55,782 nucleotides of DNA. It comes from an uncultured Alphaproteobacteria bacterium (lineage in GTDB: Bacteria > Pseudomonadota > Alphaproteobacteria > Methylaequorales > Methylaequoraceae). Positions 16,102 through 34,037 of the stretch are shown here, in pieces. Made by a program: the position numbers and the translations under genes. Location: positions 1-55,782 of the forward strand of contig CACACI010000007.1 in assembly GCA_902530985.1 (NCBI GenBank). The letters run 5' to 3'. Within the stretch, counting starts at the first letter, position 1; every line of letters starts with the position of its first letter. Below the pieces are notes generated by a model. The model saw only the letters and a program-made list of their open reading frames with translations. It was not told the DNA's origin and ran no database searches.

Positions 16102-16893
16102 TTACATTCCTGGTAATCTCATCAAACTTGCCCCTACGGAATCAAGTTCCTCAGCCATCTGGATAAATTTAACGTGCATCTCAAATTTTCTTTGTTGATC
16201 AATAGTATTAACCATCTCCTCAACTGCATTTACATTACTTTTTTCTAAGAATCCTGAAACAATTTTTGATTGTTGATTAGGTTCAATATCAACAATTGTC
16301 GTTATTCCTTCTTCATTAGGTTGGGATTCAATTCTTATGTGTCCATCTAAGGTTTTTTTTAATCTATCTTCTTCTGCAGGAGAAAAAGTCCCTATTATAC
16401 CGACATTCTGTGGAAGTGCACCTGGTTCTGCACCGATTGGTTGAATATAAACCTCTCCTTGAGGAGAGATTGTTAGTTCACGAAAAGCAGGTAAAACAAG
16501 AGGTTGCAAACCACCATCAAGAACTTTATTTCCAGCTCCATCTAATAATTCACCTGTTTCACTAGTTTGAAAATCACCTCTTCTAGAAAGTGAAGGTTCT
16601 CCGCCATCCCTAGGTTGTATTACAAAGTAACCATTACCATCAATTGCAACATCCAGAGGATTTTTAGTATAATCCATTGTGCCTTGTTCGATAGAGAATC
16701 CCCCAACATTTCTTGATGAAACAATTCTTGGTTCTACACCATTCTGCCTATTTAAGTAGATAGAGCCAAAATCTGTTACTATATCTTGTCTATATCCTGG
16801 CGTACTTAAATTGGATAGATTATGAGAAGTTGCTGTCTGATTTTCCATAAGCATTTTCAAACTATTAAGAGCTGTTTGTGCCATTCTATCCAT
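16102..16893 (-). CDS. flgF: flagellar basal-body rod protein FlgF
   Basis: Rod-protein N-terminus (NSLKMLMENQTATSHNLSNLSTPGYRQD), PLDVAIDGNGYFVIQ, C-terminal FLEKSNVNAVEEMVNTIDQQRKFEMHVK. Confidence 0.88.
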   Translation of the reverse strand: MDRMAQTALNSLKMLMENQTATSHNLSNLSTPGYRQDIVTDFGSIYLNRQNGVEPRIVSSRNVGGFSIEQGTMDYTKNPLDVAIDGNGYFVIQPRDGGEPSLSRRGDFQTSETGELLDGAGNKVLDGGLQPLVLPAFRELTISPQGEVYIQPIGAEPGALPQNVGIIGTFSPAEEDRLKKTLDGHIRIESQPNEEGITTIVDIEPNQQSKIVSGFLEKSNVNAVEEMVNTIDQQRKFEMHVKFIQMAEELDSVGASLMRLPGM

Positions 16894-16922
16894 AATTTAT
16901 ATCCTTAGCTAAATATTCTTAG

Positions 16923-19900
16923 TTACATTCTTATGTTAACAATAGCTTGTGTAGTTGCAGCTGTTGTTTCAATTGATTTAGCATTTGCCTGGAAGTTTCT
17001 TTGAGCAGTAATTAGGTTCACAAGCTCCTCCGTAATGTCAACATTCGATCTTTCTAGTGAACCAGATAGAACTGTTCCAAAACCCTCAGCACCTGCTTCA
17101 CCAACCGTTGCTGTTCCAGAAACTGCTGTTTCAACATAAGTTGCGTTACCAATTTGTTTTAAACCGTTTTGGTTGTTAAAGTTTGCAAGAACAATTTTTC
17201 CAAGTGGATTATTCTGTCCATTGGTATAGTTAGCTCTAACTGTTCCAGATGCATCAACTTCCAAACCATCTAATCGTCCAGATGTAAAACCATCCTGATT
17301 AACTGTTGATACGAAGAATGGTTGTGCTAACTGAGTTGACTTCGTAAAGTCAATATCTAGATCAATACTAAATCCAGCTTCTTGCTTTTCGTAATGAACA
17401 CCTTGCTTTGGACTAACAATTCGACCAGATTTATCAAACGTTAATTCACCCTCATCTATATACAAAGGATAATATCCATCAACTAAGTTGGCTGGTGGCG
17501 TAGTAACTTTGTTACCAGCAGCATCAACATAAAGAGCTAAACCTTCACTGTTAGTTGCTTGGGTTAAGTTATAAATTTGCGGAACTGATCCAACACCTAA
17601 GTCAACATTGTCAAGACCAAATTTAGAGGCTCCTCTAACTTTAATTGTAGAATCTCTTCCTGTTGTACCATTTGTAAATGTGAATTTATTAGTAGCGGAA
17701 TCATATTTCACTGTGATACCACCGCCAACTGTTCCTGATGTATCTTCAATCTGATTAATTCTTTGTTGAAGTGCTTCAGCTAATGTTGTGCCAACATAAA
17801 ATCCTTGAGGTATTTCAATAATACCCGCCACACCATTAACAGAAACGTTAAATATATTCTCATTATTTTGGTTAGATAATCTAAAGACTTGAGTTAGATC
17901 CTCAGTTGCAGAAGAACCAAGAGCTTGTGCAGGCTGAGCTGCCAAACCTTTTGCTGCCGTTTTTAGGGCATTTGTCTTAGTTTTACCAATACCGAGTAAG
18001 TTATTATCTCCAGAGAAGAAATCAGTAGTATCAGTGATAGATCCGTCAGTTGTAGATAATGCATATCTTCCTACTTGAATATCTGATGCAGTTTGATTAG
18101 TTGTAACTCCTAGTGCCCCATTTGCAGCAATAGTTTCACCTGTAGTTCCACTACTAAATTCAAAAGCTTTTAATTCACTATTATAACCGACTTTCACTCC
18201 AAATCTTTTATCATTTAGCTGAATTTCAGCTCCATCAGCTACAAAAGTTGCTGCAGAGAACTTTTCACCACCTCTTATCAGAGTGGTTGAAGTGTCATCT
18301 GCAGTTGGAATACCTAAATTATTTGTAGCAGTGGCTGTTGAAGAACCATAAAGTTTAAAACTATTAAAGTTACTGTTTGTTCCTGTACCAATTAAGTTTC
18401 TGTCAACTTCAAATTGTAACCTTTGATTTAAAACATCATAAGTTACTTCAATTGGTGGATTTTTTTCGTCAACCCAATGCATTTGCGGTGTTACCTTATC
18501 GGTGGCACTACCATCACCATTTAAATGGTTATCTCTTGTGCCCGCACTTGCGTTATCTCCAATACCAATCAGATCAAATGTATCTAGAGCCGAACCACCT
18601 GTAGTCTTACCAGTTTTAAGAATGAATTGTTCTGTAAAACCATCAAGAATATGTTTGCCCGAATTTCCAGCAACCATTTGTCTATCTGTATAAGAATGCT
18701 TATTTGATGTTCCAATTTCTCTCATTACTAATTGTTTGTTACTAAAATTAACATCTGCGCCTTTATATACAGCTGATGGATCTGCCCCTTCAAAGAAAGC
18801 TTCAACTGAAGTAGATACAGTACTGTAGATATTTGCATCATTACCACTAGTAAAATCAATACTAAAATCAGAATCAGGTAAATTCATTCCAGCTGTACTA
18901 CACTCGATGTAATACTGAGCTGCTGAACTTACGGTTTCTGAACCAACACTGGTTACAGTAAATTCTCTTCCATTAATAAATTCTCCATTTGTTGTATCGG
19001 TTGTATTAGCATAAAATTGTCCAATTAATCGAACTTTCGAGTTAGCTGCTATTCCGTTTGAAGCTGGGTTAGTTGTCCCAAAATGGAATCTTATAGTATT
19101 CTCTGATTGATCATAGAAAACAGCTTTTCCTGCATTTACGGATGCTCCACCGGGATTAATAGCCATTTCAGTTTTTTTATCATAAACATGAACTTGAGGG
19201 CTTTTACCAAAATATGAATAAGTTAAATACTGATTAGTTGCTGTAAAACTTGAAGCTGCTGTAGCATGGGTTGAAGAATTTCTTTGAAATTCAAATGCTT
19301 GACTTTGTTCTAGCATTGTAGACATTTCTTTGCCAGTTGCTCTATAAAATAATTGACTGGATATCCCTAAGGCTGATGCTTTTGCTGTATCAACTACTCC
19401 ACCTGCTGAGGCTCCAGTTTGTTTTGACACTGCGTATGTATTCAAAGAATCATTAAGTCTTGCCTGTGTGTGAGCAAGAAACTGATCTCTAGTAAAATCT
19501 GGAGATGCACCTGTTAATACGATGCCTTCTTTAGTTGAAACATATGAATCTGCTAGTAAATCAACAGAAATAGGAGTTGTTAAACCTGTTGAAGTTCCAT
19601 CAGCATTTAATTTTTGAAGATCTATTGTCAAAGTATCGTCAACGTTTTGAACAATTTGAATTTTTTTATCATCACCATATGCAGCATTAGTAGACCTTTG
19701 TATTTCAGCTGCTAATTGTGCCGCGTTGTAAGAACCTGGTCTAATATCAATATTTACTGGTTGGTCACTTCCATCAACATTAATTGTCATGAAATTTTTT
19801 CCCCAGTAAGTTTGAGAACTTGTGTCACCACTTTCTCTCGTTGCATTAAATTGTAATGGATCAGTAACAACTGTAACGGTTTTATCACCTTCTTCACCAA

Positions 19901-20828
19901 AATCAAAGGCGCTTGATTCACCAGTTATTTTTGCTGGAGTAGAATCAACCAAGGTTTTAAGATCATCTTGTTTGTATAGCGCTGACCCTTTACCTTCTAA
20001 GAAGTAGTTATCATCAGGAACCTTAGTAGTCTGTTGACCAAATCTATCAATAAAGATTGGCTGCTTCGTATCATTTACAGCTTTAACAAGATCTGGATCA
20101 ATTACAGTATCGTTAATCACTAATCTTGTATCATACTTATTTGTTGGATCGCTAGCAGATGCAGCTTGAGTTCTTATGAAGAAAATAGTTGCAATTGTTG
20201 GATTACCTAAATCATCAAATATTGTAATTGATGTTGAATTGTTATATGTTGTTGGATCATTTGGATTAAAAACATAACCACTCGCAAATTGTGCATTATC
20301 TGTAATAACATCACTGGTTGCCGATACGTTAACACCAAGCTCAATGGCTGTTGTTGCCTTTGGAGTTCCAGATGTCACTGGGAGTTGGAGAGGTATTGCA
20401 CTTGTTAAATCTTTTGCTGTTACAGAACCGTCAGCATTCACTGGGAATGTAAGAAGGAACTGTCCAGAAGAGTCAGTAACATATCTATCGTTGTTAACGT
20501 TAAAAGATCCGTTACGAGTATAAACTGTTTGTCCAGAAGTTAAAGAAGGCTTAAGTGAGAAGAAACCTTGCCCTGAAATCGCCATGTCAAGAACGTTCAG
20601 AGATGAAGTAATGTTACCCTGAGTAAACTGCTGCTTTACACTTTTAAGAATTGTACCAGAACCAATTGATGATGATGCATTCTGTAATGGTGATGTTGCA
20701 AAAATATCACCAAATTCTGCTCTTGATCTCTTAAAACCGGTCGTATTTACGTTTGCGATATTATTCGACGTTGCCGAAATATCTGATTGTGCTCCATTAA
20801 GTCCGGTTAGTGCTGTATAAAATGACAT
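16923..20828 (-). CDS. flgE: flagellar hook protein FlgE, unusually large (1301 aa)
   Basis: N-terminal MSFYTALTGLNGAQSDISATSNNIANVNTTGFKRSRAEFGDIF and C-terminal LERSNVDITEELVNLITAQRNFQANAKSIETTAATTQAIVNI; strong AGGAG upstream. Confidence 0.95.
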   Translation of the reverse strand: MSFYTALTGLNGAQSDISATSNNIANVNTTGFKRSRAEFGDIFATSPLQNASSSIGSGTILKSVKQQFTQGNITSSLNVLDMAISGQGFFSLKPSLTSGQTVYTRNGSFNVNNDRYVTDSSGQFLLTFPVNADGSVTAKDLTSAIPLQLPVTSGTPKATTAIELGVNVSATSDVITDNAQFASGYVFNPNDPTTYNNSTSITIFDDLGNPTIATIFFIRTQAASASDPTNKYDTRLVINDTVIDPDLVKAVNDTKQPIFIDRFGQQTTKVPDDNYFLEGKGSALYKQDDLKTLVDSTPAKITGESSAFDFGEEGDKTVTVVTDPLQFNATRESGDTSSQTYWGKNFMTINVDGSDQPVNIDIRPGSYNAAQLAAEIQRSTNAAYGDDKKIQIVQNVDDTLTIDLQKLNADGTSTGLTTPISVDLLADSYVSTKEGIVLTGASPDFTRDQFLAHTQARLNDSLNTYAVSKQTGASAGGVVDTAKASALGISSQLFYRATGKEMSTMLEQSQAFEFQRNSSTHATAASSFTATNQYLTYSYFGKSPQVHVYDKKTEMAINPGGASVNAGKAVFYDQSENTIRFHFGTTNPASNGIAANSKVRLIGQFYANTTDTTNGEFINGREFTVTSVGSETVSSAAQYYIECSTAGMNLPDSDFSIDFTSGNDANIYSTVSTSVEAFFEGADPSAVYKGADVNFSNKQLVMREIGTSNKHSYTDRQMVAGNSGKHILDGFTEQFILKTGKTTGGSALDTFDLIGIGDNASAGTRDNHLNGDGSATDKVTPQMHWVDEKNPPIEVTYDVLNQRLQFEVDRNLIGTGTNSNFNSFKLYGSSTATATNNLGIPTADDTSTTLIRGGEKFSAATFVADGAEIQLNDKRFGVKVGYNSELKAFEFSSGTTGETIAANGALGVTTNQTASDIQVGRYALSTTDGSITDTTDFFSGDNNLLGIGKTKTNALKTAAKGLAAQPAQALGSSATEDLTQVFRLSNQNNENIFNVSVNGVAGIIEIPQGFYVGTTLAEALQQRINQIEDTSGTVGGGITVKYDSATNKFTFTNGTTGRDSTIKVRGASKFGLDNVDLGVGSVPQIYNLTQATNSEGLALYVDAAGNKVTTPPANLVDGYYPLYIDEGELTFDKSGRIVSPKQGVHYEKQEAGFSIDLDIDFTKSTQLAQPFFVSTVNQDGFTSGRLDGLEVDASGTVRANYTNGQNNPLGKIVLANFNNQNGLKQIGNATYVETAVSGTATVGEAGAEGFGTVLSGSLERSNVDITEELVNLITAQRNFQANAKSIETTAATTQAIVNIRM

Positions 20829-20851
20829 GTTTTTTCTCCTCTGTTATTATT

Positions 20852-21556
20852 TTAGTTATTTGATTTAAATTTTATTGCTTCAGAAGCTGAGATTTCTCCA
20901 TAATCTTTTGTTTCTAAAATCACATCTTCACTGTTTTTAGGTGCAGATGCTGCAATAACTTTGTTATAAACTGCTGTATTTAATCCGTCTGATCCTTCAG
21001 CATTTCCTGAGTAAGCTTGTATAGTTAATTTTGTTTTATTTTTTTTAATTTCATCTGGAATGTCTGACCAAATAAAACCCACAAGACCTTTATCTTGAGA
21101 TCCTAAATTCATTGAATGAACTATTTCTCCACTTGGATTGGTAAAAGTTAAACCGACATCATTTGAGAAAACTGGAAGATCAATAACCCCATGAATTTCA
21201 CCATTATCGTCTGGACTAGCCACTTGACCGGGTACAAGTACTGAATGACCAAGAAATTGGGCTGCAGTAGCAACTCTATTAGGTTCCAGTTTTGAACCAA
21301 GGCTAGTTAGATTGTTATTAATTTCTGTGATTCCTGTAACTGTTGAAAATTGTGCCATCTGAGCAATAAAGTCACCATTGTCCATTGGTGCAAAAGGGTC
21401 TTGATTTTGTAATTGAGTTGTCATCAATTTCAAAAAATCTTCTTGACCTAATGAAGTTTTTTTACCACTTTTGGCGACATCTTCTTGAGTTTTTACTCCA
21501 AGTTTATTTAAGATATTATTTAAAGATTGTTCTGATGTTTTTGAAATATCTGCCAT
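20852..21556 (-). CDS. flgD: flagellar hook assembly protein FlgD
   Basis: LGQEDFLKLMTTQLQNQDPFAPMDNGDFIAQMAQFSTVTGI. Confidence 0.97.
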   Translation of the reverse strand: MADISKTSEQSLNNILNKLGVKTQEDVAKSGKKTSLGQEDFLKLMTTQLQNQDPFAPMDNGDFIAQMAQFSTVTGITEINNNLTSLGSKLEPNRVATAAQFLGHSVLVPGQVASPDDNGEIHGVIDLPVFSNDVGLTFTNPSGEIVHSMNLGSQDKGLVGFIWSDIPDEIKKNKTKLTIQAYSGNAEGSDGLNTAVYNKVIAASAPKNSEDVILETKDYGEISASEAIKFKSNN

Positions 21557-21569
21557 TTTTACTCCTTAA

Positions 21570-21983
21570 TTACTTTCCTAAACTTGCAGTTTTGAGCATT
21601 AATGCTCTAACAGTTGATATTACTTCTACATTGTTTTGATATTGTCGAGATGCTTCAAGCATATCAACATATTCTTCTTCAATATTTACTGGTGCCCTGT
21701 AGATAAAGCCATCTTGATCAGCCATTGGATGACCTGGTTTAAATTCTTTAATAGGATCAACATCCATTTTTTTGACCGTAACAGCATCAACGGTTGAAAT
21801 GCCTCTTTTTCTTATCAAATCAAAGTATTTTGTTTCAAAAATTGGTTTAACTGGTCTATATGCATCCGCAGGGCTTGATGCTATATTATCAGCGTTAGCT
21901 AAATTACTTGCAGTTGCATTCAATCTTACTAATTGTGCTCCCATTGCTCGTTGAGCTATATGATAAATATTTTTAATGTCCAT
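21570..21983 (-). CDS. flgC: flagellar basal-body rod protein FlgC
   Basis: RLNATASNLANADN...; MLEASRQYQNNVEVISTVRALMLKTASLGK. Confidence 0.96.
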   Translation of the reverse strand: MDIKNIYHIAQRAMGAQLVRLNATASNLANADNIASSPADAYRPVKPIFETKYFDLIRKRGISTVDAVTVKKMDVDPIKEFKPGHPMADQDGFIYRAPVNIEEEYVDMLEASRQYQNNVEVISTVRALMLKTASLGK

Positions 21984-22372
21984 TATTCACCTCTAATTGC
22001 ACCCATTAAACCTTTAACTTTTGAATTAATAAAATCCAATGTAGTTTGGTATCTAATCGCATTTTCTGCAAATTCCATTTGTTCTACTGCTAGTTCCACG
22101 GTATTGCCATCAACAGAAGGGTTGACAGATTGTCTGTATTGTACTTTGCCAGGAAGGTTCTTTGAAACTAGGGCAATATGCTGCGAATTAGAGGTATTTA
22201 GTGGACCCACATTAAGTGATCTTGCTAATTCAACTTCAAAGTCTACGTCTCTAGCCTTGTAATTCGGTGTAGCGGCGTTGGCAATATTAGATGCAAGGAT
22301 TTCTTGTTTTTGATTCCTTACTCTTAATGCATTGCTCAATACATTTAATTGTTGTTTAATATTATCTACCAT
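21983..22372 (-). CDS. flgB: flagellar basal-body rod protein FlgB
   Basis: RNQKQEILASNIANAATPNYKARDVDFE; NTVELAVEQMEFAENAIRYQTTLDFI. Confidence 0.96.
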   Translation of the reverse strand: MVDNIKQQLNVLSNALRVRNQKQEILASNIANAATPNYKARDVDFEVELARSLNVGPLNTSNSQHIALVSKNLPGKVQYRQSVNPSVDGNTVELAVEQMEFAENAIRYQTTLDFINSKVKGLMGAIRGE

Positions 22373-22393: not shown

Positions 22394-22409
22394 TGGTTTA
22401 GAATTTGCA
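22394..22409 (+). promoter_or_regulatory. weaker sigma-54 type element for the K/E-rich protein gene
   Basis: Plus strand TGGTTTAGAATTTGCA; GG-N10-GC spacing, 31 nt before the ATG at 22441. Confidence 0.5.
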
Positions 22410-22421
22410 AATTAAGTGCCA
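22406..22421 (-). promoter_or_regulatory. sigma-54 type -24/-12 promoter for flgBCDE(F)
   Basis: Minus strand TGGCACTTAATTTGCA: TGGCAC...TTGCA with GG and GC 10 nt apart; 34 nt upstream of flgB ATG. Confidence 0.85.
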
Positions 22422-22440
22422 AAAGAAAGGTAAAATAATT

Positions 22441-23532
22441 ATGAATGAAAAAAATGCATTTAATTCTGACTTAGATCCTGAAGTTATAAAGATTAGAGAC
22501 AAGATTATAAGTAAGATCGGAGATAAACCGCTTGATGAAGTAAATTCTATTATTAAAAAATTATTAAATGAGAGTATGGATGAGGTTACAAGACTTGGAG
22601 CACTTGCAGCGAGATTAAAAATTATAAGGTCTAAGATCGATTTGTTGTATGAAAGAAAAGTAGACATTAAACCACAAGTAAAAAAAGCACCTGTAAACAC
22701 TAAAAAAGAAGAAAGTAAGACTGAATCTCTCGAAGAAAAATGGGTGAGGGTGAAAATGCTTGAGGCCTCAGATGTTAATGGCAAGCAAATTGATAAGGGC
22801 GTAATTCTGGATGTAAAAGAGGAAGATAGTAAAAAGCTTTTAGATACAAAAAAGGCTGAAATAGTTGAAGAAAAAACTGAAGGAGCCACACCTATTCAAA
22901 AAAGTGAAAAAATTCAGACAAAAGAAGATCAAAAAGAAGATAAAAAAGAAGAACAAAAGGAACATCAAAAAGAAGAACAAAAGGAACATCAAAAAGAAGA
23001 ACAAAAGGAACAAAAAAAAGAAGAACAAAAGGAACAAAAAAAAGAAGAACAAAAGGAACAACAAAAAGAAGATCAAAAAGAAAGTGAGAACAAAAAAGAA
23101 GAAAAAGTTATAAAAAATGATGATAAAGACAAAAGGGATGAAGAAAAAGAATCAGTTCCAGAGAAAAAAACAGATATTAAAGAAGAAGATTCTAAACCAA
23201 AAAACTTATTAGAAAAACATGAGGATGCAGTTTCAGATGATGATAGTGTTGAAGATTCCTCAAATGATAATAAAAGTGTTAAATCAGACGATGTAAAAAA
23301 AGAAGAAGTAAGTAAATCTGAAGAAAACTCGAGTGAAGGTAAGGTAGATGAGAAAGATGATGTTAAGGATTCAGCCAATGTGTCTGTAAAAAAATCTGAA
23401 CCATTACCAAATACAGATAACGAAGATAAATCTGAAAATAAAGATAAAAGTCAGGAAAGTTCAAGCGCTGAAAATACTGAGGAAAATAACAAAGATACAG
23501 AGAATGATAGTTCAGTCAAAGAAGAAAAATAA
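22441..23532 (+). CDS. K/E-rich low-complexity protein with conserved-looking N-terminal region; flagellar-locus associated, unknown function
   Basis: ORF with AAAGG-type ribosome site before ATG 22441; folded-looking N-terminal ~140 aa (EKWVRVKMLEASDVNGKQIDKGVILDVKEEDSKKLLDTKKAEIVEE) then a repetitive charged tail. Confidence 0.7.
   Translation: MNEKNAFNSDLDPEVIKIRDKIISKIGDKPLDEVNSIIKKLLNESMDEVTRLGALAARLKIIRSKIDLLYERKVDIKPQVKKAPVNTKKEESKTESLEEKWVRVKMLEASDVNGKQIDKGVILDVKEEDSKKLLDTKKAEIVEEKTEGATPIQKSEKIQTKEDQKEDKKEEQKEHQKEEQKEHQKEEQKEQKKEEQKEQKKEEQKEQQKEDQKESENKKEEKVIKNDDKDKRDEEKESVPEKKTDIKEEDSKPKNLLEKHEDAVSDDDSVEDSSNDNKSVKSDDVKKEEVSKSEENSSEGKVDEKDDVKDSANVSVKKSEPLPNTDNEDKSENKDKSQESSSAENTEENNKDTENDSSVKEEK
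22945..23064 (+). repeat. 5 x 24-nt in-frame tandem repeat encoding KEEQKE(H/Q)(Q/K)
   Basis: Successive units AAAGAAGAACAAAAGGAACATCAA (x2), ...GAACAAAAA (x2), ...GAACAACAA. Confidence 0.9.
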
Positions 23533-23934: not shown

Positions 23935-24360
23935 TCAAACTTTTCCATGATATTTAAGTATTGGTTCTATCTCTTCGTTACTTAGACCTGTTGAGGAGGA
24001 AATTTCCTCAAGACTGCGGCCTTGATTAGCCATTTGAATTGCTGTTGTAATATTTGAATCACCTTGATTTGAATCTGCTAATCTGGAAATTTCTAAATCT
24101 AATTTCTCGAGTGTGTATTTGTAATCTTGGAGAGTTTTTTTTTGTTCTGACAAATTCAATTCTAGAGATCTGAATTCTTCAATAAGGTCCTTTATAGCTC
24201 TTTCTAATATACTTATTTTTTTTGCATTACCACTATTCCTAGAATAATCTATGAAATAACCTGCAATTACAACTAAAACAAAAAAAATTGTAATTAAAAT
24301 AATAATTGAAGATGTATGAGCTAAAGGGTCTTTTTCAATGTAATCGTTAAGAAAATTCAT
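23935..24360 (-). CDS. membrane-anchored coiled-coil protein, DUF6115-like
   Basis: N-terminal TM, coiled coil, C-terminal AIQMANQGRSLEEISSSTGLSNEEIEPIL helix-turn-helix-like motif. Confidence 0.6.
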   Translation of the reverse strand: MNFLNDYIEKDPLAHTSSIIILITIFFVLVVIAGYFIDYSRNSGNAKKISILERAIKDLIEEFRSLELNLSEQKKTLQDYKYTLEKLDLEISRLADSNQGDSNITTAIQMANQGRSLEEISSSTGLSNEEIEPILKYHGKV

Positions 24361-24397: not shown

Positions 24398-24676
24398 TTA
24401 TTTAAATTTTCTGTTATCAATAAAGTTTTTAAACTCAGTAAAAGTTTCTTTATTTAAATTATTATTCTTATCTAGGATTTTAATTGCATCTTCAAGTGAT
24501 TTGAGCTTTGCAAGAAAATCTTCATTATTTAACTCCAACTTTTCCTTATCAAGTTCATTTTTTAATGTTATGGAAACTTTTTGTAATTCGTCTTCAATAG
24601 AAGAAAGTTCATCAATATCTCGGGATTCCGATGCTTTTTTAAGTAGATTTAAAAATGAGTCTAGTTTATTTTCCAT
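24398..24676 (-). CDS. small helical protein, candidate FlgN-like chaperone
   Basis: 92-aa predicted coiled coil immediately downstream of the flgM-like gene; call is mainly positional. Confidence 0.4.
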   Translation of the reverse strand: MENKLDSFLNLLKKASESRDIDELSSIEDELQKVSITLKNELDKEKLELNNEDFLAKLKSLEDAIKILDKNNNLNKETFTEFKNFIDNRKFK

Positions 24677-24690
24677 TAATTAATGGGAGC

Positions 24691-25002
24691 TTACTTCATT
24701 TCCTTATAAGCATCAAAGAGAGCATCAGCAACCTTTGATAAATCTAGCGGGTAATTACCGTTTTTAATTGCTTCTTTGATTCGCGATGTTGAAATCTTAT
24801 CTATAGGTGGTTCCTTGGACATACTCTTGATTTTCTCCTTAGTTATGAACTGCGAAACCTTTCCATCATAAGCATCAATTTTAGGTTTAGTAGGATTATC
24901 GACTTTTTGAACTTTAGTTTTAGTTTGATTAGCGTTGTCAATAGCCTTCTTTGCGCTAGAAACGCTTGCATTTAAAGTTTTATTTTTTATTTGGTCTATC
25001 AT
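24691..25002 (-). CDS. flgM: anti-sigma-28 factor FlgM-like
   Basis: C-terminal PPIDKISTSRIKEAIKNGNYPLDLSKVADALFDAYKEM resembles the FlgM sigma-28-binding region; fliA is in the same region. Confidence 0.78.
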   Translation of the reverse strand: MIDQIKNKTLNASVSSAKKAIDNANQTKTKVQKVDNPTKPKIDAYDGKVSQFITKEKIKSMSKEPPIDKISTSRIKEAIKNGNYPLDLSKVADALFDAYKEMK

Positions 25003-25037
25003 TTTATTTAATCCTTACAAATTATAACGACTACTTT

Positions 25038-25745
25038 TTAATTTTGTTTAGTGTTTATTATAACTTTTTTTTGATTTTTTGCATATCCTACAATTATTTT
25101 CCCACTTTTTATGTTTTTAACTTTGATTTTTTCCATATAATTAGCATTATTCATAGCTAAACCTTCTTCTTTGATAGTTACAAAACTTCTATTATTAACA
25201 ATGGTAACTAGGGAATTTTTCTCAATAAGCCAATCATTTGTAAGGTTGGAATATCTCAATGCTTCTTTGGGTTTAATTTTCTTTTTTAATTTTTTACCAA
25301 TTATCTCTGATTTATCTGTGATAAATATGTTTGTAATACCTCTTTTTTTATTTATTGTCATTAAATCTTCCTCTGAGATTATTGTACCCTTATCTTTAAA
25401 ATTCTTTAAAGCAAAAACCTCAATAGATTTATCAAGTTTCTTAGCTTTTTTCTTACCACCAATTTTATTTCTTACAATAAATTGCCATGGATTTTCCCCA
25501 AAGCAATTAACTTTAATAAGTTTTGAATTGCCAGAAATATCATTTATTATCATTTTTGAAGAGTCACATTCTGGATATTTTAATTCATCTAAAATTGAAA
25601 TGTTAGCTTCCTTACCATTATTTTCGAGCCAACTTTCAACAATAGTTTTAAGTTGACTTCCGTTAATTGTTGATGCACTTAGATTATTTCCAAACAACAA
25701 TATCAATGAAAATTTAATTAAAATTTTTAAAAATTTAGTTTCCAT
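25038..25745 (-). CDS. flgA: flagellar P-ring formation chaperone FlgA
   Basis: SAF-type C-terminal region (GKKLKKKIKPKEALRYSNLTNDWLIEKNSLVTIV...GLAMNNANYMEKIKVKNIKSGKIIVGYA). Confidence 0.85.
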   Translation of the reverse strand: METKFLKILIKFSLILLFGNNLSASTINGSQLKTIVESWLENNGKEANISILDELKYPECDSSKMIINDISGNSKLIKVNCFGENPWQFIVRNKIGGKKKAKKLDKSIEVFALKNFKDKGTIISEEDLMTINKKRGITNIFITDKSEIIGKKLKKKIKPKEALRYSNLTNDWLIEKNSLVTIVNNRSFVTIKEEGLAMNNANYMEKIKVKNIKSGKIIVGYAKNQKKVIINTKQN

Positions 25746-26160
25746 AAAAATAAATATGACCGTTTCTTGAAGAGTTGCTCGAGCTTTGTTGTCCTTTTGT
25801 TTTTTTTACTAAATTCATTATTTCGTTAATTGAAGGAATTTTTATTTTTTTTCCTGCAAATAAAAAATGAGGATTATTTCTTACAAACGCATGTTTGTTC
25901 ATTTCAATAAGAGAAATTTCTATAATTTTCATATTAAGTCCACTGTTTCCATAATATTTTTTTAAAATTCCACTCAGTGATTCACCAGTTTTAACTTTAT
26001 GACTAACTGAATAATTTTGATCTTTTATAAAAACATTTTCTTTATTTAAACTTTGGACTGAATTGCCAGCACCCTTGTATTCCAATACAACAAATGGCTC
26101 ATTGGACATAACGTTGTTATACAAAAAAATATTACATATAATTAAAATAAGTATTTTCAT
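25735..26160 (-). CDS. LysM domain protein in flagellar operon
   Basis: YSVSHKVKTGESLSGILKKYYGNSGLNMKIIEISLIEMNKHAFVRNNPHFLFAGKKIKIPS. Confidence 0.75.
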   Translation of the reverse strand: MKILILIICNIFLYNNVMSNEPFVVLEYKGAGNSVQSLNKENVFIKDQNYSVSHKVKTGESLSGILKKYYGNSGLNMKIIEISLIEMNKHAFVRNNPHFLFAGKKIKIPSINEIMNLVKKTKGQQSSSNSSRNGHIYFYGN

Positions 26161-26167
26161 TTCACAC

Positions 26168-27343
26168 CTAATTCATAAATTTTATAATTTTTCCATTTAT
26201 ATCTTCTTTTTTATTCAAAGAATTTAGAGGCTCAACAGTTGCAAAGTTTTCCTGAGAATTACTAACTGTTAAAACTATCCATTCACTCATTATAACATCC
26301 TTAGAGTTTGAAATAAAACCTACAGTACCTCTTTTCAAACCTTGATTCAAACCAATTGGAATAGTAAGTTCATCATTAACTAATTTGACCTCAGCTTGCA
26401 GTGGTTGACATTTTAATTTATCTAGAACTCTATATTGAATTTTTGAAATACTGTTTTTTACAAAATCTGTCAATTTGTCTTCCGAAACACCAATAAATGC
26501 ATCTATATGTGAGTAACCTGTTTTGTTACCAGCCCAAAGAGAAAATTGATAGCTAAGTGAATCCAAAATTTTGTAATATGGTCCTTCATAAATATTTAGT
26601 GTAATGTTAACCATTATCTCTTTTGAAACTTTGGTAAGTCTTCCTTTTGCATAATCAAGCTTGATAATAGGATGGATTGCAAATTCACCATTATTTAGAG
26701 CATTTCTTTTTCCTTCTACAATATTATTGTAATCAAGCGATATTGATTTCTTCACTACTTTACTTGGATTAAAAGTTACCTTTGATGAATCATTTAAATT
26801 GATATAATCGATGTTATTTAAATTCCTGAAAATAGCTGAAGAGATAACATTTGGAAGTTTATTTGTCCATGCTGGAAGTCTGCTAGAGATGGAATAATGG
26901 GGAGATAAATATGATACATTTACAAATTGTCTACTAGAACAATTTAGCATATTATTAACACTTACTAAATAAGCTTTTATGCTGACATTGTAATGAGTTT
27001 CGTCAGCATTTTCCTCTAAGATTACAAAATCTTTTATAGTTGATGCAGGTCGAACTAAAACATTTTCATTTAAGTTTGTACTAGTATCAACACTAGAGTA
27101 TCCGTCTATTTTTGCTCCACCTTGAAGACTTGCCAAGTAAAGTGCATCTTCTAATGCTCTTTTCTTTGCTAAATTAATGTCCCCATTGATTATGACGGCT
27201 CTTCCTTTTGAGAAGACTTCTTTGTAGCCAATCTCATTTGCAACTAAGTAAGTTGATCCAAGAAGAATTACCAGAAGCGATGTAAAAAAATATACTAGCT
27301 GTCTTAGAAGCACATCAAAAGAGTTGTATTCAATTTTTTTCAA
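26168..27343 (-). CDS. flgT: FlgT-like flagellar H-ring protein
   Basis: KEVFSKGRAVIINGDINLAKKRALEDALYLASLQGGAKIDGYSSVD resembles the FlgT N-terminal domain; C-terminal GLKRGTVGFI segment; adjacent FlgP-like gene. Confidence 0.7.
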   Translation of the reverse strand: MKKIEYNSFDVLLRQLVYFFTSLLVILLGSTYLVANEIGYKEVFSKGRAVIINGDINLAKKRALEDALYLASLQGGAKIDGYSSVDTSTNLNENVLVRPASTIKDFVILEENADETHYNVSIKAYLVSVNNMLNCSSRQFVNVSYLSPHYSISSRLPAWTNKLPNVISSAIFRNLNNIDYINLNDSSKVTFNPSKVVKKSISLDYNNIVEGKRNALNNGEFAIHPIIKLDYAKGRLTKVSKEIMVNITLNIYEGPYYKILDSLSYQFSLWAGNKTGYSHIDAFIGVSEDKLTDFVKNSISKIQYRVLDKLKCQPLQAEVKLVNDELTIPIGLNQGLKRGTVGFISNSKDVIMSEWIVLTVSNSQENFATVEPLNSLNKKEDINGKIIKFMN

Positions 27344-27354
27344 TTTAATCTCTC

Positions 27355-27864
27355 TTACATAGATTGTGCTTGTCTAAAAAGATAAGCAACCATATCTTGG
27401 TCAATTTCTAAAACTGTCTCATATGTATCATTACCAGTAGGATTTATTCTAACAGTCCTTGCTCCCCTTATGACACCAGATACGATACCTCTGAAAGTAT
27501 CATTCTGAACCATTAAGTCTATTACAGTCGTATTACTGTCGACTTTGAGACCATGTATTTGTTCAGCAAGTTCTCTCATTGCAGCCATTCTTGCAGATCT
27601 AATTGCCATCAACCTTTTTTGCTCAACATTTTGACCTGGTTGAGTTGATACTACGGCATATCCAGTCGCAGTAAGTGTTGGGAAATTAATAGATGCTCCA
27701 TCAAGTAATTCTCTGGTTTTATTTAATTGACTGGTTGGTTTAGAGTAATCATCTATGTTCTCTTGAGAAACACTGGAAAGTTGTGAATTATTGAACCCAC
27801 TCATCAAATTTCCATTACATGATTGTAGAAAAATTGTTATAATAACTAGTAGAAATTTATTCAT
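27355..27864 (-). CDS. flgP: FlgP-like/LPP20-family lipoprotein
   Basis: Lipobox TIFLQSC, then ATGYAVVSTQPGQNVEQKRLMAIRSARMAAMRELAEQIHGLKVDSNTTV...RTVRINPTGNDTYETVLEID. Start placed at MNKFLL, downstream of the sigma-54 element, not at the track's 27921. Confidence 0.78.
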   Translation of the reverse strand: MNKFLLVIITIFLQSCNGNLMSGFNNSQLSSVSQENIDDYSKPTSQLNKTRELLDGASINFPTLTATGYAVVSTQPGQNVEQKRLMAIRSARMAAMRELAEQIHGLKVDSNTTVIDLMVQNDTFRGIVSGVIRGARTVRINPTGNDTYETVLEIDQDMVAYLFRQAQSM

Positions 27865-27953: not shown

Positions 27954-27969
27954 TGGCACATCTCTTGCA
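27954..27969 (+). promoter_or_regulatory. sigma-54 type promoter for flhA-flhF-flhG-fliA
   Basis: TGGCACATCTCTTGCA, near-consensus -24/-12 (TGGCAC-N5-TTGCA), ~86 nt upstream of the flhA ATG. Confidence 0.88.
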
Positions 27970-28054: not shown

Positions 28055-30196
28055 ATGGATTTAGTGCTAAAAACATTCCATAAACAAAATTTTTTAGATT
28101 TTGCAAGGACTTTTAGTATTCCAATTGGAATAATGATACTAATTGCGATGATGGTAATACCATTGCAACCTTGGATGTTAGACATATTATTTACTTCAAA
28201 TTTGTTGGTTTCTTTATTAGTTCTAATGGTGGCATTACAAACATTTAGACCATTGGATTTTTCAAGTTTTCCAACGGTGCTACTGTTTGCAACAGTTTTG
28301 AGACTTGGTCTTAATGTTGCTTCAACAAGAGTAATACTAAAATCTGGACACAATGGAACTGACTCTGCAGGACAAATAATAGAGGCTTTTGGTGAATTTG
28401 TGATGTCAGGTAGTTATGCCGTCGGATTATTTGTTTTTGCAATTCTAGTGATAATTAATCTTATAGTTATAACAAAAGGTGCAGGTCGTGTTTCAGAGGT
28501 TGCAGCAAGATTTACATTAGATGCAATGCCAGGAAAACAAATGGCTATAGATGCTGATTTAAATGCAGGAATCATAACAAGTGAAGAAGCAAAAGCTAGA
28601 AGAAATGAAACTTCTAAAGAAGGAGAATTTTATGGTGCTATGGATGGTGCAGCAAAGTTTGTTAAAGGTGATGCTATTGCTGGAATACTAATTTTGGTTA
28701 TTAACATAATTGGAGGATTGATTATAGGTTCAGTAATGCATGATCTGACTCTAAATGAATCAGCAGAGACTTATATACTTCTAACAGTAGGTGATGGTCT
28801 AGTTGCACAAATTCCTTCATTACTTCTCGCCATGGCTACAGCAACTATTGTAACTAGAATATCATCAGATAAACATGATTTAGCTGGTCAGATTTCAGCA
28901 CAAATGGGATTGTCAAAAGCATGGGTTCCTGTATCTGCTGTATTATTATTATTTGGTTTAGTTCCGGGTATGCCAAATACTTTATTTCTAATGGGAGCTT
29001 TTATATCAGGAACTATTGCTTGGTTTACATCAAAAAGTAAGGGACAAGAACAAATTGATGAAAAAAAAGATACAAATGATGATGAAGAAAATATAGGAAA
29101 AATAGAAATTGATGAGGTATCTGACAACGCTTCAATATCATTAGATTTAGGTTATGGTTTAATATCACTGGTAGATTCTAATGACAAAAAATCAGCTGGC
29201 CCTTTAATTTCGAAAATTACAAGTATTAGAAAACAAGTTTCAAAAGATTTAGGTTTTATTATTCCAAATGTAAGAGTTAAGGATGATTTATCTTTAGATG
29301 CTAATTCCTACAAAATCAGAATAGGTCATACGATTGTTGCTGAGGATAAGATTTATGTTGATAGAAAACTTGCAATGCCTGGAGATGAGACTCAATTAAA
29401 AGTTCAAGGTATTCAGGTTAAGGATCCATCATTTGGATTAGATGCATTTTGGATTGAACAACATTTGGTAGCCAAAGCAGAAGCAAATCATTATATGATA
29501 ATAGAACCAGAAGCAGTGATTGCTACGCACCTAAATCAAATTTTACTGAGGTTTGCAGGAGAACTGATTAGTCAAGATGATGTGCAATCTCTTTTAGATA
29601 ATCTTTCAAAAACAAACCCACAACTGGTTCAATCAGTTATTCCTAAACTTGTACCGCTACATTATTTAACAATAATACTTAGAAATTTATTAGTCGAAAG
29701 AGTTCCAATTAATGATTTGAAGAAAATACTTGAAGCTTTGTCAAATTTGGCTGAAAAAAAACTTAGTCCAGATGAATTATCTGAAGCTGTTAGACCAGCA
29801 ATTTCTTCATTACTTATTCAAAAGATTTCAAGTGTGAATGAGGCTCTTAATGTAATTACATTTAATCCAGAATTTGAACAGATGTTGATTTCTATGTCAA
29901 AAAAGAGTGGTTCCGATGGACTTCTTATTGACCCTGCTTTAGCCAAACAAATGATAAAATCAATTATTGATGTTGGAGACAAAACATCAATAGATGGAAA
30001 TTCTCTTGTGGTAATAACATCACCGATTGTAAGAAAAGATTTATCAATCTTACTTCGTCAACATGTTGACGACATAGTGGTGTTATCCTTTACTGAACTG
30101 CCAGAAACCAAAAGAGTTAAAGTAATTGCCACAATTGGTGAACAAATATCAACCACAACAAAAAAGGAGCAAGAAAATGAAAACACAACTATTTAA
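28055..30196 (+). CDS. flhA: flagellar biosynthesis protein FlhA
   Basis: FPTVLLFATVLRLGLNVASTRVIL, GRVSEVAARFTLDAMPGKQMAIDADLNAG. Confidence 0.98.
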   Translation: MDLVLKTFHKQNFLDFARTFSIPIGIMILIAMMVIPLQPWMLDILFTSNLLVSLLVLMVALQTFRPLDFSSFPTVLLFATVLRLGLNVASTRVILKSGHNGTDSAGQIIEAFGEFVMSGSYAVGLFVFAILVIINLIVITKGAGRVSEVAARFTLDAMPGKQMAIDADLNAGIITSEEAKARRNETSKEGEFYGAMDGAAKFVKGDAIAGILILVINIIGGLIIGSVMHDLTLNESAETYILLTVGDGLVAQIPSLLLAMATATIVTRISSDKHDLAGQISAQMGLSKAWVPVSAVLLLFGLVPGMPNTLFLMGAFISGTIAWFTSKSKGQEQIDEKKDTNDDEENIGKIEIDEVSDNASISLDLGYGLISLVDSNDKKSAGPLISKITSIRKQVSKDLGFIIPNVRVKDDLSLDANSYKIRIGHTIVAEDKIYVDRKLAMPGDETQLKVQGIQVKDPSFGLDAFWIEQHLVAKAEANHYMIIEPEAVIATHLNQILLRFAGELISQDDVQSLLDNLSKTNPQLVQSVIPKLVPLHYLTIILRNLLVERVPINDLKKILEALSNLAEKKLSPDELSEAVRPAISSLLIQKISSVNEALNVITFNPEFEQMLISMSKKSGSDGLLIDPALAKQMIKSIIDVGDKTSIDGNSLVVITSPIVRKDLSILLRQHVDDIVVLSFTELPETKRVKVIATIGEQISTTTKKEQENENTTI

Positions 30197-31322
30197 AGCC
30201 AGAGACATGAAAACAGCTATGAATCTGGTCAATGATGAATTTGGTGAAAAAGCCATAATTTTATCTACAAAAAAAAATAATGGTGTAGTTGAAGTTGAGG
30301 CATCAGACAATGATGATATTATTGAAACTCATAAAAAACAAATAGAAGAAAATAAGAGTTTTTCAAATGTTTTTATGAAAGAAATGGATATACCGGTTAA
30401 ACATAAAATAAATAAGAAGGATAATATATCTTATTTAGGAACTAAAAAACTAAAGGAGCCTCTTCAAAAAGGAGAAAGTACAGAATTGCTAAAAAAAATT
30501 CAGAAACAGCTTGATTCTTTAAAAGAAGAAATGAACAATATGATTCTCACAGATCAGTCAGGCATATCAGATAAATTATCTCACTTTACGCCTATAAAAC
30601 TCAGACAAGAAAAGTTTTTACCTAGTATAATAAATAAATTAAGTTATTCATTTATTGGTAAGAATTTGGAAGAGGGTAGAGTTTCTTTTTTCAGGGAACT
30701 ATCAAAGAAATTAGCATCAGATGATTTCTCAAGATTTTTAAATTCAAAAAATATCTTTGTATTTGGCAACTCTGGATCAGGAAAATCAACACTTGCAGCG
30801 AAGATTGCATCTTACTTATCTGATAAAAGGAGTTCAAAGAATATAAATTTCATAGATGTAACAAATTCGAGCACTGGTAATTCAGATGTTTTAAGATCTT
30901 ATAGTCGAGTCTTAGGCTTTCCAGTTAAGGATTATAACTTTTTTAACTTTAATAACTCAGATAAGAATGATTCTATAAATATTTTTGATTTTTCTGGTGA
31001 TATAAATTTCGGAGTACAAAAAATAAAAGAGATAAAAAATTCATTTCCGTCTTTTAATTTTTGTTCTATATTAACCTTACCAAGTGGTTCAAATTCTGAA
31101 ATGATTGATGGCCTTACGGCAAAAGTATCAGATATCAGGCCTATGGTTGCAGTTACAAAACTTGATGAATGTTGGGTTGGTGCAGAAGAATTTTCGTCAC
31201 TTGCGTTGAATAATGCCAGAATAGGCATTGTAACAGGAACTAAAATTTTGATAGATTCAATAATGGAAGCTAATGAGAACTCACTAACAAAGTATATGAA
31301 AGAGAATTTTAAAGGTGTCTGA
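30177..31322 (+). CDS. flhF: flagellar biosynthesis regulator FlhF (SRP-type GTPase)
   Basis: N-terminal MKTQLFKARDMKTAMNLVNDEFGEKAIILSTKKNNG; P-loop GNSGSGKSTLAAKIA; VTKLDE. Start 30177, overlapping the flhA end. Confidence 0.88.
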   Translation: MKTQLFKARDMKTAMNLVNDEFGEKAIILSTKKNNGVVEVEASDNDDIIETHKKQIEENKSFSNVFMKEMDIPVKHKINKKDNISYLGTKKLKEPLQKGESTELLKKIQKQLDSLKEEMNNMILTDQSGISDKLSHFTPIKLRQEKFLPSIINKLSYSFIGKNLEEGRVSFFRELSKKLASDDFSRFLNSKNIFVFGNSGSGKSTLAAKIASYLSDKRSSKNINFIDVTNSSTGNSDVLRSYSRVLGFPVKDYNFFNFNNSDKNDSINIFDFSGDINFGVQKIKEIKNSFPSFNFCSILTLPSGSNSEMIDGLTAKVSDIRPMVAVTKLDECWVGAEEFSSLALNNARIGIVTGTKILIDSIMEANENSLTKYMKENFKGV

Positions 31323-32112
31323 TTCAATTGCAATAACGAGTGGTAAAGGTGGGGTTGGTAAAACTACTTTTGCTGTAAACCTTTCAATTGCTCAAAAAAA
31401 ACTAACTGAAAAAGTTTTTTTGCTTGATACCGACATGGGTATGGCAAATTCTCATGTTCTTCTTGGCATCAATCCTGAATTCTCGATTGCAGATGTTATA
31501 TCTGGAAGAAAAAAAATATCAGAGATTATTGTTTCAAATAAAAATGGAATTAATTTAATCTCTGGAGGCACTGCGTCTAATAATCTTTTAAATATGGAAA
31601 ATATTAAAAGATATTCAATTTTAAACGAAATTGATAATTACCTTAAAGAATCAGGGAATGTCAAACTAGTTGTAGATATTGCTGCCGGTGCTGAAGATAA
31701 CGCATTAGTATTTTCAATGGCATGTGACCGTATTTTAATTGTAATTATTGGTGAACCGACAAGTTTTATTGATTCATATGCTTTAATTAAAGCACTATTT
31801 TCTAAATCATCTTTTAAGAATTATTGTATTGCAGTCAATCAAGTTGATGATGATGAACATGGAAAGGATTTATTTAAAAAGTTTCAGTCAATAACTTCAC
31901 AATTTTTAGATGTTAATTTACATTATGTAGGATGTATAAAAAACTCAGGTAAGATTAGAAAGTCAATTGTAGATAGAACTCCGATAATGTCGAGTGAACC
32001 TAAGTCAGATATATCTCAGTCTTTCTTAAAGATTGCTAAAAATATTAATAATACGCCAATAAATCAGTGGGGGGGATTAACTTTTCTTTCAAAAGTCAAA
32101 AAAAGGGCGTAA
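31315..32112 (+). CDS. flhG: MinD-like ATPase FlhG/FleN
   Basis: IAITSGKGGVGKTTFAVNLSIA, LLDTDMGMANSHVLLG; GTG start overlapping the flhF stop. Confidence 0.93.
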   Translation: MSDSIAITSGKGGVGKTTFAVNLSIAQKKLTEKVFLLDTDMGMANSHVLLGINPEFSIADVISGRKKISEIIVSNKNGINLISGGTASNNLLNMENIKRYSILNEIDNYLKESGNVKLVVDIAAGAEDNALVFSMACDRILIVIIGEPTSFIDSYALIKALFSKSSFKNYCIAVNQVDDDEHGKDLFKKFQSITSQFLDVNLHYVGCIKNSGKIRKSIVDRTPIMSSEPKSDISQSFLKIAKNINNTPINQWGGLTFLSKVKKRA

Positions 32113-32122
32113 ACTAAGCGAT

Positions 32123-32827
32123 ATGAATAAATATTACTTGGACAAATCTCAGGTATCGATAAATAATTTAATTCAAGAAAACTTAGATTTGGTAAAAAAA
32201 ATAGCTTGGCAACTTCATGGAAGAGTTCAAAATATTGTTGAAATAGAAGATCTAATTCAGCAAGGTATGGAAGGTCTTGTTCATGCTGCACAGAAATATT
32301 CACCAAGAGAAGGTGTAAATTTTTCACAATACGCTCAACTCAGAATTAGAGGATCAATTATAGATTATCTCAGAAAAAACTCTAATCTATGTAGAACTAC
32401 AATTAAAAAAAAACAAGAGTTTGATAGATATAAGCTTGATCTTGAAAAGAAATTGAATAGACAAGTTACTGAAAGAGAATTAATTGAATTTATTGGAATA
32501 ACCGATGATGAATATAATTATTGGAAGCAGGCTTTTGAAGCAAATGTTGTTCAGAGTCTTGATACAGCCTATAATGAATATTCAATACTTTTTGCTAGTC
32601 CAGATGAAAATCCAGAGGCAAAATTGCAAAATAAGGAACTAAAAAATCAGATATTTGAAGCTCTAAATGTTTTAAACCAAAGAGAGGCTATGGTTGCTCA
32701 ATTATATTATGTTGAAGAGTTAAATATCTATGAAATTGCAGATGTATTAGAGATAAGTACTGGTAGGATTTCTCAAATTAAAAAGTCAATAATTCAGAAA
32801 TTAAGAAATGAAATCAATCCAACGTAA
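32123..32827 (+). CDS. fliA: flagellar sigma factor FliA (sigma-28)
   Basis: VEIEDLIQQGMEGLVHAAQKYSPREGVNFSQYAQLRIRGSIIDYLR; sigma-4-like AQLYYVEELNIYEIADVLEISTGRISQIKKSIIQKLR. Confidence 0.95.
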   Translation: MNKYYLDKSQVSINNLIQENLDLVKKIAWQLHGRVQNIVEIEDLIQQGMEGLVHAAQKYSPREGVNFSQYAQLRIRGSIIDYLRKNSNLCRTTIKKKQEFDRYKLDLEKKLNRQVTERELIEFIGITDDEYNYWKQAFEANVVQSLDTAYNEYSILFASPDENPEAKLQNKELKNQIFEALNVLNQREAMVAQLYYVEELNIYEIADVLEISTGRISQIKKSIIQKLRNEINPT

Positions 32828-33224
32828 AAAAGATACATGGAAAAAAATAAATAAAGTCATCTTGAGAGTTGATAGTATTGATTTAAGTTATGAAAAAAAC
32901 ACAATAATCTTGTTTGATTGTGGATTTGAAAATATTTCCAAAGGAAGGTGCAAGTTAACTATTAAAGAAAAAGAAAAGACATCTAAAGATAATCTTTTTA
33001 TTCATAATGACAAAGCTTTAATGGAGGTGAATGTTCACTATAATATATCTGATTTAGATAAGCTTTTAAAATTTTTTTCATATAAAAGAAACTTGATAAG
33101 AAAAATTAAGATCAGCCTAACTATTTCAGATAGCTTGATGGTCAATTATATCGGAGATCTTTATGTAAAAGATAAAACAGATATTAGAATTGAGTCTATA
33201 GGATGGGATATACCGATATTGTAA
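32808..33224 (+). CDS. unknown protein, end of flhA-fliA operon
   Basis: 138-aa ORF overlapping the fliA 3' end by 20 nt; no family recognised. Confidence 0.6.
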   Translation: MKSIQRKKDTWKKINKVILRVDSIDLSYEKNTIILFDCGFENISKGRCKLTIKEKEKTSKDNLFIHNDKALMEVNVHYNISDLDKLLKFFSYKRNLIRKIKISLTISDSLMVNYIGDLYVKDKTDIRIESIGWDIPIL

Positions 33225-34037
33225 TTATCTTGCTGATAATTTTTTTGTTATGTCGACTTCTGATTGCAGAAGTTTTGAGCAACCATTAAAAGCTCTTTGA
33301 GTTCTCATCATTAGAACAATTTCATCTGTAATGTCAGTATTAGATTTTTCTAAAAAACCTGCTTGAACTTTACCAATTGTTCTTTGTTTAGGAAGCCCAA
33401 AAGTCGGTTCACCACTATCTTGGGTTTCTTGAAATCTCGCATTACCAATGTTTTTTAAACCATGCTCATTTACAAAGTCTGCTAATTGAATTTGTCCAAC
33501 TGTTGTAACTTGATCTAATCCATAAGTTGCTATAATTTCACCTTCAGAATTTACAGCTATCTCTGACAATAACGCTTTTTTATCAACGCTATTATCTGAT
33601 ATAATTTTTGTAAAAGGGATATTTATTGGAGTTTGTCCCAAACCTAGTAAAGGAAGTCCATCAGTATTGACTAAATTTCCCTCTCTATCTAATTGAAACG
33701 AACCATCTCTGGTAAATACAGGTTTGTCTGTTGTTGTAACGGCTGTTCTTCCAAGTGGTTGCCCCAATACAAAAAAACCTTCCCCCATAATTGCTAAGTC
33801 AAGACTTCCATTTGTAGCTTGAAGTGATCCTTGAGCAAAACTTTGACGTGGTTTAATTGTTTTTACTCCCATACCTCTTGCAGGTTCTGTAGAATTATTG
33901 TGCTGAGAGTGATAAAGGTCTTCAAATTGTGCTTCACTTTTTTTAAAACCGTTAGTTCCAGCGTTTGCTATGTTATTTGAGATAACTGCTAAGTCTCTAT
34001 TAGCTGCATCTAGTCCTGTTCTAATTATTGAAAACAT
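33225..34037 (-). CDS. short FlgE/FlgF/FlgG-family hook-basal-body protein (270 aa)
   Basis: FSIIRTGLDAANRDLAVISNNIANAGTNGFKKSEAQFEDLYH; LDLAIMGEGFFVLG; FLEKSNTDITDEIVLMMRTQRAFNGCSKLLQ. Confidence 0.88.
   Translation of the reverse strand: MFSIIRTGLDAANRDLAVISNNIANAGTNGFKKSEAQFEDLYHSQHNNSTEPARGMGVKTIKPRQSFAQGSLQATNGSLDLAIMGEGFFVLGQPLGRTAVTTTDKPVFTRDGSFQLDREGNLVNTDGLPLLGLGQTPINIPFTKIISDNSVDKKALLSEIAVNSEGEIIATYGLDQVTTVGQIQLADFVNEHGLKNIGNARFQETQDSGEPTFGLPKQRTIGKVQAGFLEKSNTDITDEIVLMMRTQRAFNGCSKLLQSEVDITKKLSAR

Follow-up and report, generated by a model that had tools for sequence, protein, structure and literature searches.

A predicted H-ring locus in the gamma-type flagellar gene block of the marine alphaproteobacterial order TMED127

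The flgP–flgT locus and its described counterparts

In the polar flagella of Vibrio, a disk of FlgP lies beneath the outer membrane, and a ring of FlgT links this disk to the L-ring and the stator zone. MotF has been reported for Rhodobacteraceae. Within the Alphaproteobacteria, the Fla1 flagellum of Cereibacter (Rhodobacter) sphaeroides is gamma-derived and carries a FlgT H-ring together with FlgP. Its H-ring is visible, and MotX and MotY are absent; FlgT interacts with MotB, FliL and FlgH, and FlgP in turn with FlgT and FlgH (PMC7277832). A 2026 review mentions C. sphaeroides as one species of the Alphaproteobacteria in which H-ring homologues occur (PMC13023049). Here we describe a flgP–flgT locus in a window of 55,782 nucleotides (the whole stretch of DNA analysed). 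The window is one contig from an assembly of 1.12 Mb, estimated to be 78% complete, from the uncultured order TMED127/Methylaequorales. The locus probably codes for an accessory outer ring, the H-ring or basal disk, belonging to a gammaproteobacterial-type (gamma-type) flagellum that was acquired long ago.

The locus consists of genes for FlgP and FlgT, followed by a LysM gene, flgA and flgM, all on the minus strand. The flgP gene (27355..27864, ATG at 27864) encodes an outer-membrane lipoprotein of the LPP20/FlgP family. The open reading frame (ORF) 27355-27921 matches Pfam LPP20 at 4.7e-8, the top PDB match in phmmer is Vibrio FlgP 8z5n (9.5e-16), and a possible lipobox, LQSC, can be read by eye. 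The flgT gene (26168..27343) encodes a three-domain H-ring protein with a Pfam FlgT_N match of 8.9e-10. Behind it lie a gene for a small LysM protein, predicted to be secreted and putatively of the FimV/HubP-core type (25735..26160; Pfam LysM 1.5e-5), flgA for the P-ring chaperone (25038..25745; Pfam ChapFlgA 6.5e-20, flgA_cterm 4.5e-22) and flgM for the anti-sigma-28 factor (24691..25002; Pfam FlgM 1.3e-6). The FlgT_N, LPP20, ChapFlgA, FlgM and LysM matches all lie above the curated Pfam cut-offs.

A first-pass annotation, made from the letters alone, had proposed exactly this gene order, ending in a small ORF (24398..24676, minus strand), with FlgP-like and FlgT-like genes at its head. The order is as proposed, and the two identities are borne out by Pfam, PDB and fold matches. 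Its suggestion that the small ORF is a candidate flgN found no support, since profile searches gave no FlgN-family match for this ORF or for ten positional equivalents in relatives. The ORF is without any family match and its identity is unproven; an ORF of similar size occupies the flgN position in relatives too. The conserved next gene of the block encodes a DUF2802 protein (23935..24360, minus strand; Pfam DUF2802 1e-8).

FlgT was also identified by its fold. An AlphaFold model computed from 46 window and related sequences (mean predicted local distance difference test score, pLDDT, of 82) was searched against the PDB with Foldseek, a comparison that the first-pass annotation had proposed. 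The two best matches were both Vibrio FlgT, 3w1e (E 5e-17) and 8z5n (E 1e-16), and the match spans about 389 columns, the whole length of FlgT. By sequence, Pfam recognises the N-terminal domain only, plain phmmer against the PDB gave no match, and a FlgT profile reached Vibrio FlgT at E 0.014 only. Thus, the fold search was needed to link the protein to Vibrio FlgT.

The host order is streamlined and marine, with one family, 12 genera and genomes mostly of 0.9–1.4 Mb. FlgT_N was found in 27 of the 32 order genomes sampled, covering 11/12 genera. Among 386 genomes spread over the class Alphaproteobacteria, only 11 were positive; six of these come from beyond the order and fall under three family codes. 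Contamination was considered and ruled out, as single-cell genomes carry FlgT and the protein recurs throughout the order. One family and 12 genera agree with the account of TMED127/Methylaequorales in PMC12542740, and the single amplified genome AG-892-F10, named in that study, is one of the loci compared (L032). A related metagenome-assembled genome, MED-G10, is labelled HIMB59, but an assignment to HIMB59/AEGEAN-169 was rejected, since two families are known in that order (PMC10734472).

A scan of named genomes confirmed 139 relatives, of which 80 were kept for comparison of loci; as its seeds were FlgT sequences resembling that of the window, the scan favours this locus type. Many of the kept relatives bear a SAR116 or Puniceispirillum label, and some are assigned to Rhodobiaceae or Rhodobacteraceae. 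Counting only loci whose contig reaches far enough, FlgP directly precedes FlgT in 77/77, the LysM gene follows FlgT in 76/76, flgA is part of the block in 71/71 and flhA stands head-to-head with flgP in 72/72, while the DUF2802 gene is present in 60/63. Conservation across 71–77 loci indicates that the pattern is not due to chance. The shared block, in which a sigma-54-driven flhA-flhF-flhG-fliA set faces flgP-flgT-lysM-flgA, occurs in TMED127, SAR116 and other marine alphaproteobacteria. The Octadecabacter arcticus plasmid pOA238_118 shows this layout too, with an unannotated LysM ORF between flgT and flgA (L212:9786-10133, minus strand). In G527, taken for a Rhodobacterales relative on the basis of its family code, flgPT is likewise head-to-head with flhA.

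Ring components, stators and the LysM protein

Unlike the Vibrio motor, which has an H-ring of FlgO, FlgP and FlgT and a T-ring of MotX and MotY, TMED127 is without FlgO and MotY. Profile searches found neither protein in the order (0/32 genomes each) or in five other FlgT-bearing alphaproteobacteria (0/5 each). Positive controls behaved as expected: FlgO was recovered in 7/9 and MotY in 9/9 FlgT-bearing "gammas", by which we mean genomes that share the phylum but not the class, a set that may include classes besides gammaproteobacteria. The earlier remark that FlgO and MotY were not visible is therefore true order-wide. In some FlgT-bearing genomes outside the class, flgP and flgT are adjacent on one strand (L154, L155, L151, L152). 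Two genomes of this kind, G548 and G530, gave no FlgO match, indicating that not every gamma-type H-ring set includes FlgO.

The window set is not the full Vibrio H/T-ring set; it is of the type known from C. sphaeroides Fla1. The match with Fla1 comprises a gamma-type FlhA, FlgT and FlgP without MotY, and a layout seen in Rhodobacterales (Octadecabacter, G527). Unlike Fla1, TMED127 combines these with PomA/PomB-type stators and streamlined genomes. Vibrio polar flagella have FlgT, FlgP, PomAB-type stators, FlhF/FlhG, sigma-54 class genes and FliA/FlgM in common with it (PMC6375700), whereas the TMED127 block contains an extra LysM protein and has flgPT fused to the flhA block.

The stator type was read from sister genomes; no such stator was found in the window's own genome. 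Their MotA homologue (sister genomes) scores 210 bits to Vibrio PomA versus 152 to the best MotA, and their MotB homologue 192 bits to PomB versus 93. The stretch GMIGTLVGLVAML...DPKAIGPAMAVALLTTLYGA is common to the MotA homologue and PomA. Based on these likenesses, the TMED127 stators are of the PomA/PomB type by sequence, and a sodium stator is predicted, so that they are probably sodium-driven. FlgH, an interaction partner of both ring proteins in C. sphaeroides, is present in 23/32 order genomes, including that of the window. In two TMED127 loci (L206, L205), a conserved gene for a probably secreted protein lies divergently beside the PomA/PomB-type stator genes.

The LysM protein is specific to alphaproteobacteria and invariably follows FlgT in these loci. 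It has about 140 residues (141 in the window) and is predicted to be secreted, with a signal peptide recognised by eye. Its structural model shows a single, confident LysM fold with a disordered C-terminus, and no meaningful PDB match was obtained by sequence. NCBIfam FimV_core matches 33/33 aligned LysM proteins (best 3e-10), the window member scoring 24.5 bits against a curated cut-off of 43.5. On these matches its LysM region may resemble the core of the polar landmark FimV/HubP, but the transmembrane, acidic and tetratricopeptide repeat (TPR) regions of HubP (layout in PMC8789113) are absent from the small protein. The full-length protein was found only in FlgT-bearing alphaproteobacteria; FlgT-bearing gammas yielded only short LysM matches inside large open frames and no separate protein. 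No LysM match was found in G527, whose contig ends inside flgT, or in G631, where FlgT itself scores below the cut-off; in G134 the LysM match was only partial.

From its operon position, exclusivity and domain type, we propose that this protein probably adds a contact to peptidoglycan. It is possible, if on balance doubtful, that it is an undescribed structural part of the motor which, as an anchor in the peptidoglycan, stands in for MotY, perhaps also for FlgO, and so lets PomAB-type stators work with a ring of FlgP and FlgT only.

Origin of the flagellum and alternative explanations

On the plus strand, head-to-head with flgP, a sigma-54 (-24/-12) promoter element, TGGCACATCTCTTGCA (27954..27969), of the form TGGCN7TTGC, precedes flhA. 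This motif faces flhA in 74/74 loci, while its background frequency is 0.11 per kb per strand. Then follow flhA for the export gate (28055..30196; Pfam FHIPEP 2e-230), a divergent flhF with an uncertain start codon (30186..31322; NCBIfam FlhF 4.5e-21), flhG for a MinD-like ATPase (31315..32112; Pfam ParA 7e-15 and its position after flhF) and fliA for sigma-28 (32123..32827; NCBIfam FliA_WhiG 6.8e-59). A degenerate FlhF was considered in view of the weak family scores and rejected, as both the P-loop and the TKLDE motif are preserved.

In the FlhA tree, the FlgT-type sequences of TMED127, SAR116 and Rhodobacterales form one clade (100/99) that lies inside the gammaproteobacteria and is adjoined by family f12; a tree was also built from a wider FlhA sequence set. 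This placement identifies the flagellum as gamma-type. The FlgP+FlgT tree has a 100/100 branch that separates all alphaproteobacteria from the gammas. Together with the occurrence of the same block across TMED127, SAR116 and others, this argues for an old, settled system and against a recent import of Vibrio type. The history that we therefore favour is that a gamma-type flagellum was acquired once, long ago, and was then inherited, and possibly also passed around, among the alphaproteobacteria.

The first-pass annotation had left two possibilities, a transferred gamma-type polar flagellum module or an under-described alphaproteobacterial outer disk, and had proposed a FlgT gene tree. Each possibility captured part of the picture. 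The flagellum is gamma-type by the FlhA tree and topology test, but its FlgP+FlgT tree, with the alphaproteobacteria set apart from the gammas, does not fit recent Vibrio-type import. The predicted outer ring belongs to an old system common in marine alphaproteobacteria, but the core flagellum is gamma-type and Fla1, for which the module has been described, is a precedent. The first-pass annotation would have taken a module that is common and already described in related alphaproteobacteria as a refutation. This holds by half: the module is common in marine members of the class, and a description exists for Fla1, but none was found for TMED127 or SAR116.

Of the competing explanations, a vertically inherited alphaproteobacterial flagellum, with FlgT/FlgP-like proteins that evolved independently or were kept from a common ancestor, survives best. 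In its favour, the alphaproteobacterial FlgPT sequences form their own clade and are present in several alphaproteobacterial groups. However, FlhA is distant from the FlhA of other alphaproteobacteria, and uniting all alphaproteobacterial FlhA sequences in one clade was rejected (approximately unbiased test, p-AU 4.7e-5). The rarity of FlgT_N in the class and the full-length structural match to Vibrio FlgT further render this explanation improbable. If the lineage had recently received a polar flagellum module of the Vibrio/Aeromonas type by horizontal transfer, this would account for the position of FlhA within gammaproteobacteria and for the gamma-type flhAFG-fliA order and sigma-54 sites. 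Such an import is nevertheless highly unlikely, given the 100/100 alphaproteobacterial FlgP+FlgT group, the prevalence in the order, the same block in SAR116 and Rhodobacterales, and a gene order unlike that of the FlgT-bearing gammas examined, in which flgPT is not next to flhA. Least credible is that these are LPP20/FlgT-like periplasmic proteins with another envelope function, since the breadth of the LPP20 lipoprotein family and the additional matches of the FlgT fold search to HpaA, CsgG and PelC are outweighed by FlgT and FlgP being the best matches by far, by the strict flagellar synteny and by the motor association of the distant C. sphaeroides pair (PMC7277832).

Several points nonetheless weigh against an H-ring of an old-acquired gamma-type flagellum. 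Outside FlgT_N, FlgT matches its Vibrio counterpart by fold only, with 14% identity and a template modelling (TM) score of about 0.4, and the two structures show large inter-domain differences; we read the low TM score as a sign that the three domains sit at different angles to each other. The window's own genome, 78% complete, yielded no MotB, whereas 21/31 relatives did. TMED127 is uncultured, and neither motility nor motor structure has been observed in the order. Finally, the direction of transfer was read from a single gene family, FlhA, whose tree is unrooted, which leaves room for other histories.

From the gene identities, their conservation and phylogeny, the absences and the sister-genome stator type, we infer how an acquired H-ring might operate. 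The FlgP lipoprotein would form a disk beneath the outer membrane, and a FlgT ring around the L-ring would tie this disk to the basal body and the stator zone. As the order is without FlgO and MotY, FlgT probably takes over stator recruitment; it would recruit the PomA/PomB-type stators directly, by analogy with the proposal for C. sphaeroides Fla1. The whole block, comprising the sigma-54 promoter, flhAFG-fliA and flgPT-lysM-flgAM, would have been acquired long ago from a gammaproteobacterial lineage, then kept and diversified in marine alphaproteobacteria.

Flanking genes and significance for the order

Further flagellar genes flank the block. Downstream of fliA lie a conserved ORF of 138 aa (32808..33224, plus strand), which has no family match and keeps its position in most related loci, and a flagellar rod/hook (FlgE/F/G) protein gene (33225..34037, minus strand) with its own sigma-54-like site at 34064-34049(-). 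On the other side, flgC and flgB (21570..22372, minus strand) were recognised by Pfam rod domains and by sequence and position, respectively, and a sigma-54-like site at 22421-22406(-) precedes flgB. Profile matches identified flgF, flgE and flgD (16102..21556, minus strand). At 1301 aa, the hook protein FlgE (16923-20828, minus strand) is roughly three times as long as usual; its ends are normal for FlgE, and its middle carries a large insert. Gene spacing suggests that a long FlgE is general in the TMED127 and SAR116 loci. Opposite the flagellar operon, between flgB and the DUF2802 gene, an ORF of 375 aa (22405-23532, plus strand) contains an extended region of Lys/Glu/Gln repeats and has no family match. 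A sigma-70 promoter scan was uninformative, returning 30 sites versus 24.5 expected.

The literature on flagella of TMED127, SAR116, HIMB59 and AEGEAN-169 (titles, abstracts and some full texts) yielded no description of the module, and the sole mention of flagella found in PMC12542740 is a species name in the reference list. What appears new here is the module as a fixed flagellar part in a streamlined ocean order, in SAR116 and in other marine alphaproteobacteria, along with the LysM gene, the shared locus with the sigma-54 site in it, and the combination with PomAB-type stators. A link between stator type and extra rings has been proposed (PMC6375700). With an H-ring that lacks MotY and FlgO yet keeps PomAB-type stators, the group provides a test of this link, and the locus draws attention to an uncharacterised LysM protein that invariably accompanies it.

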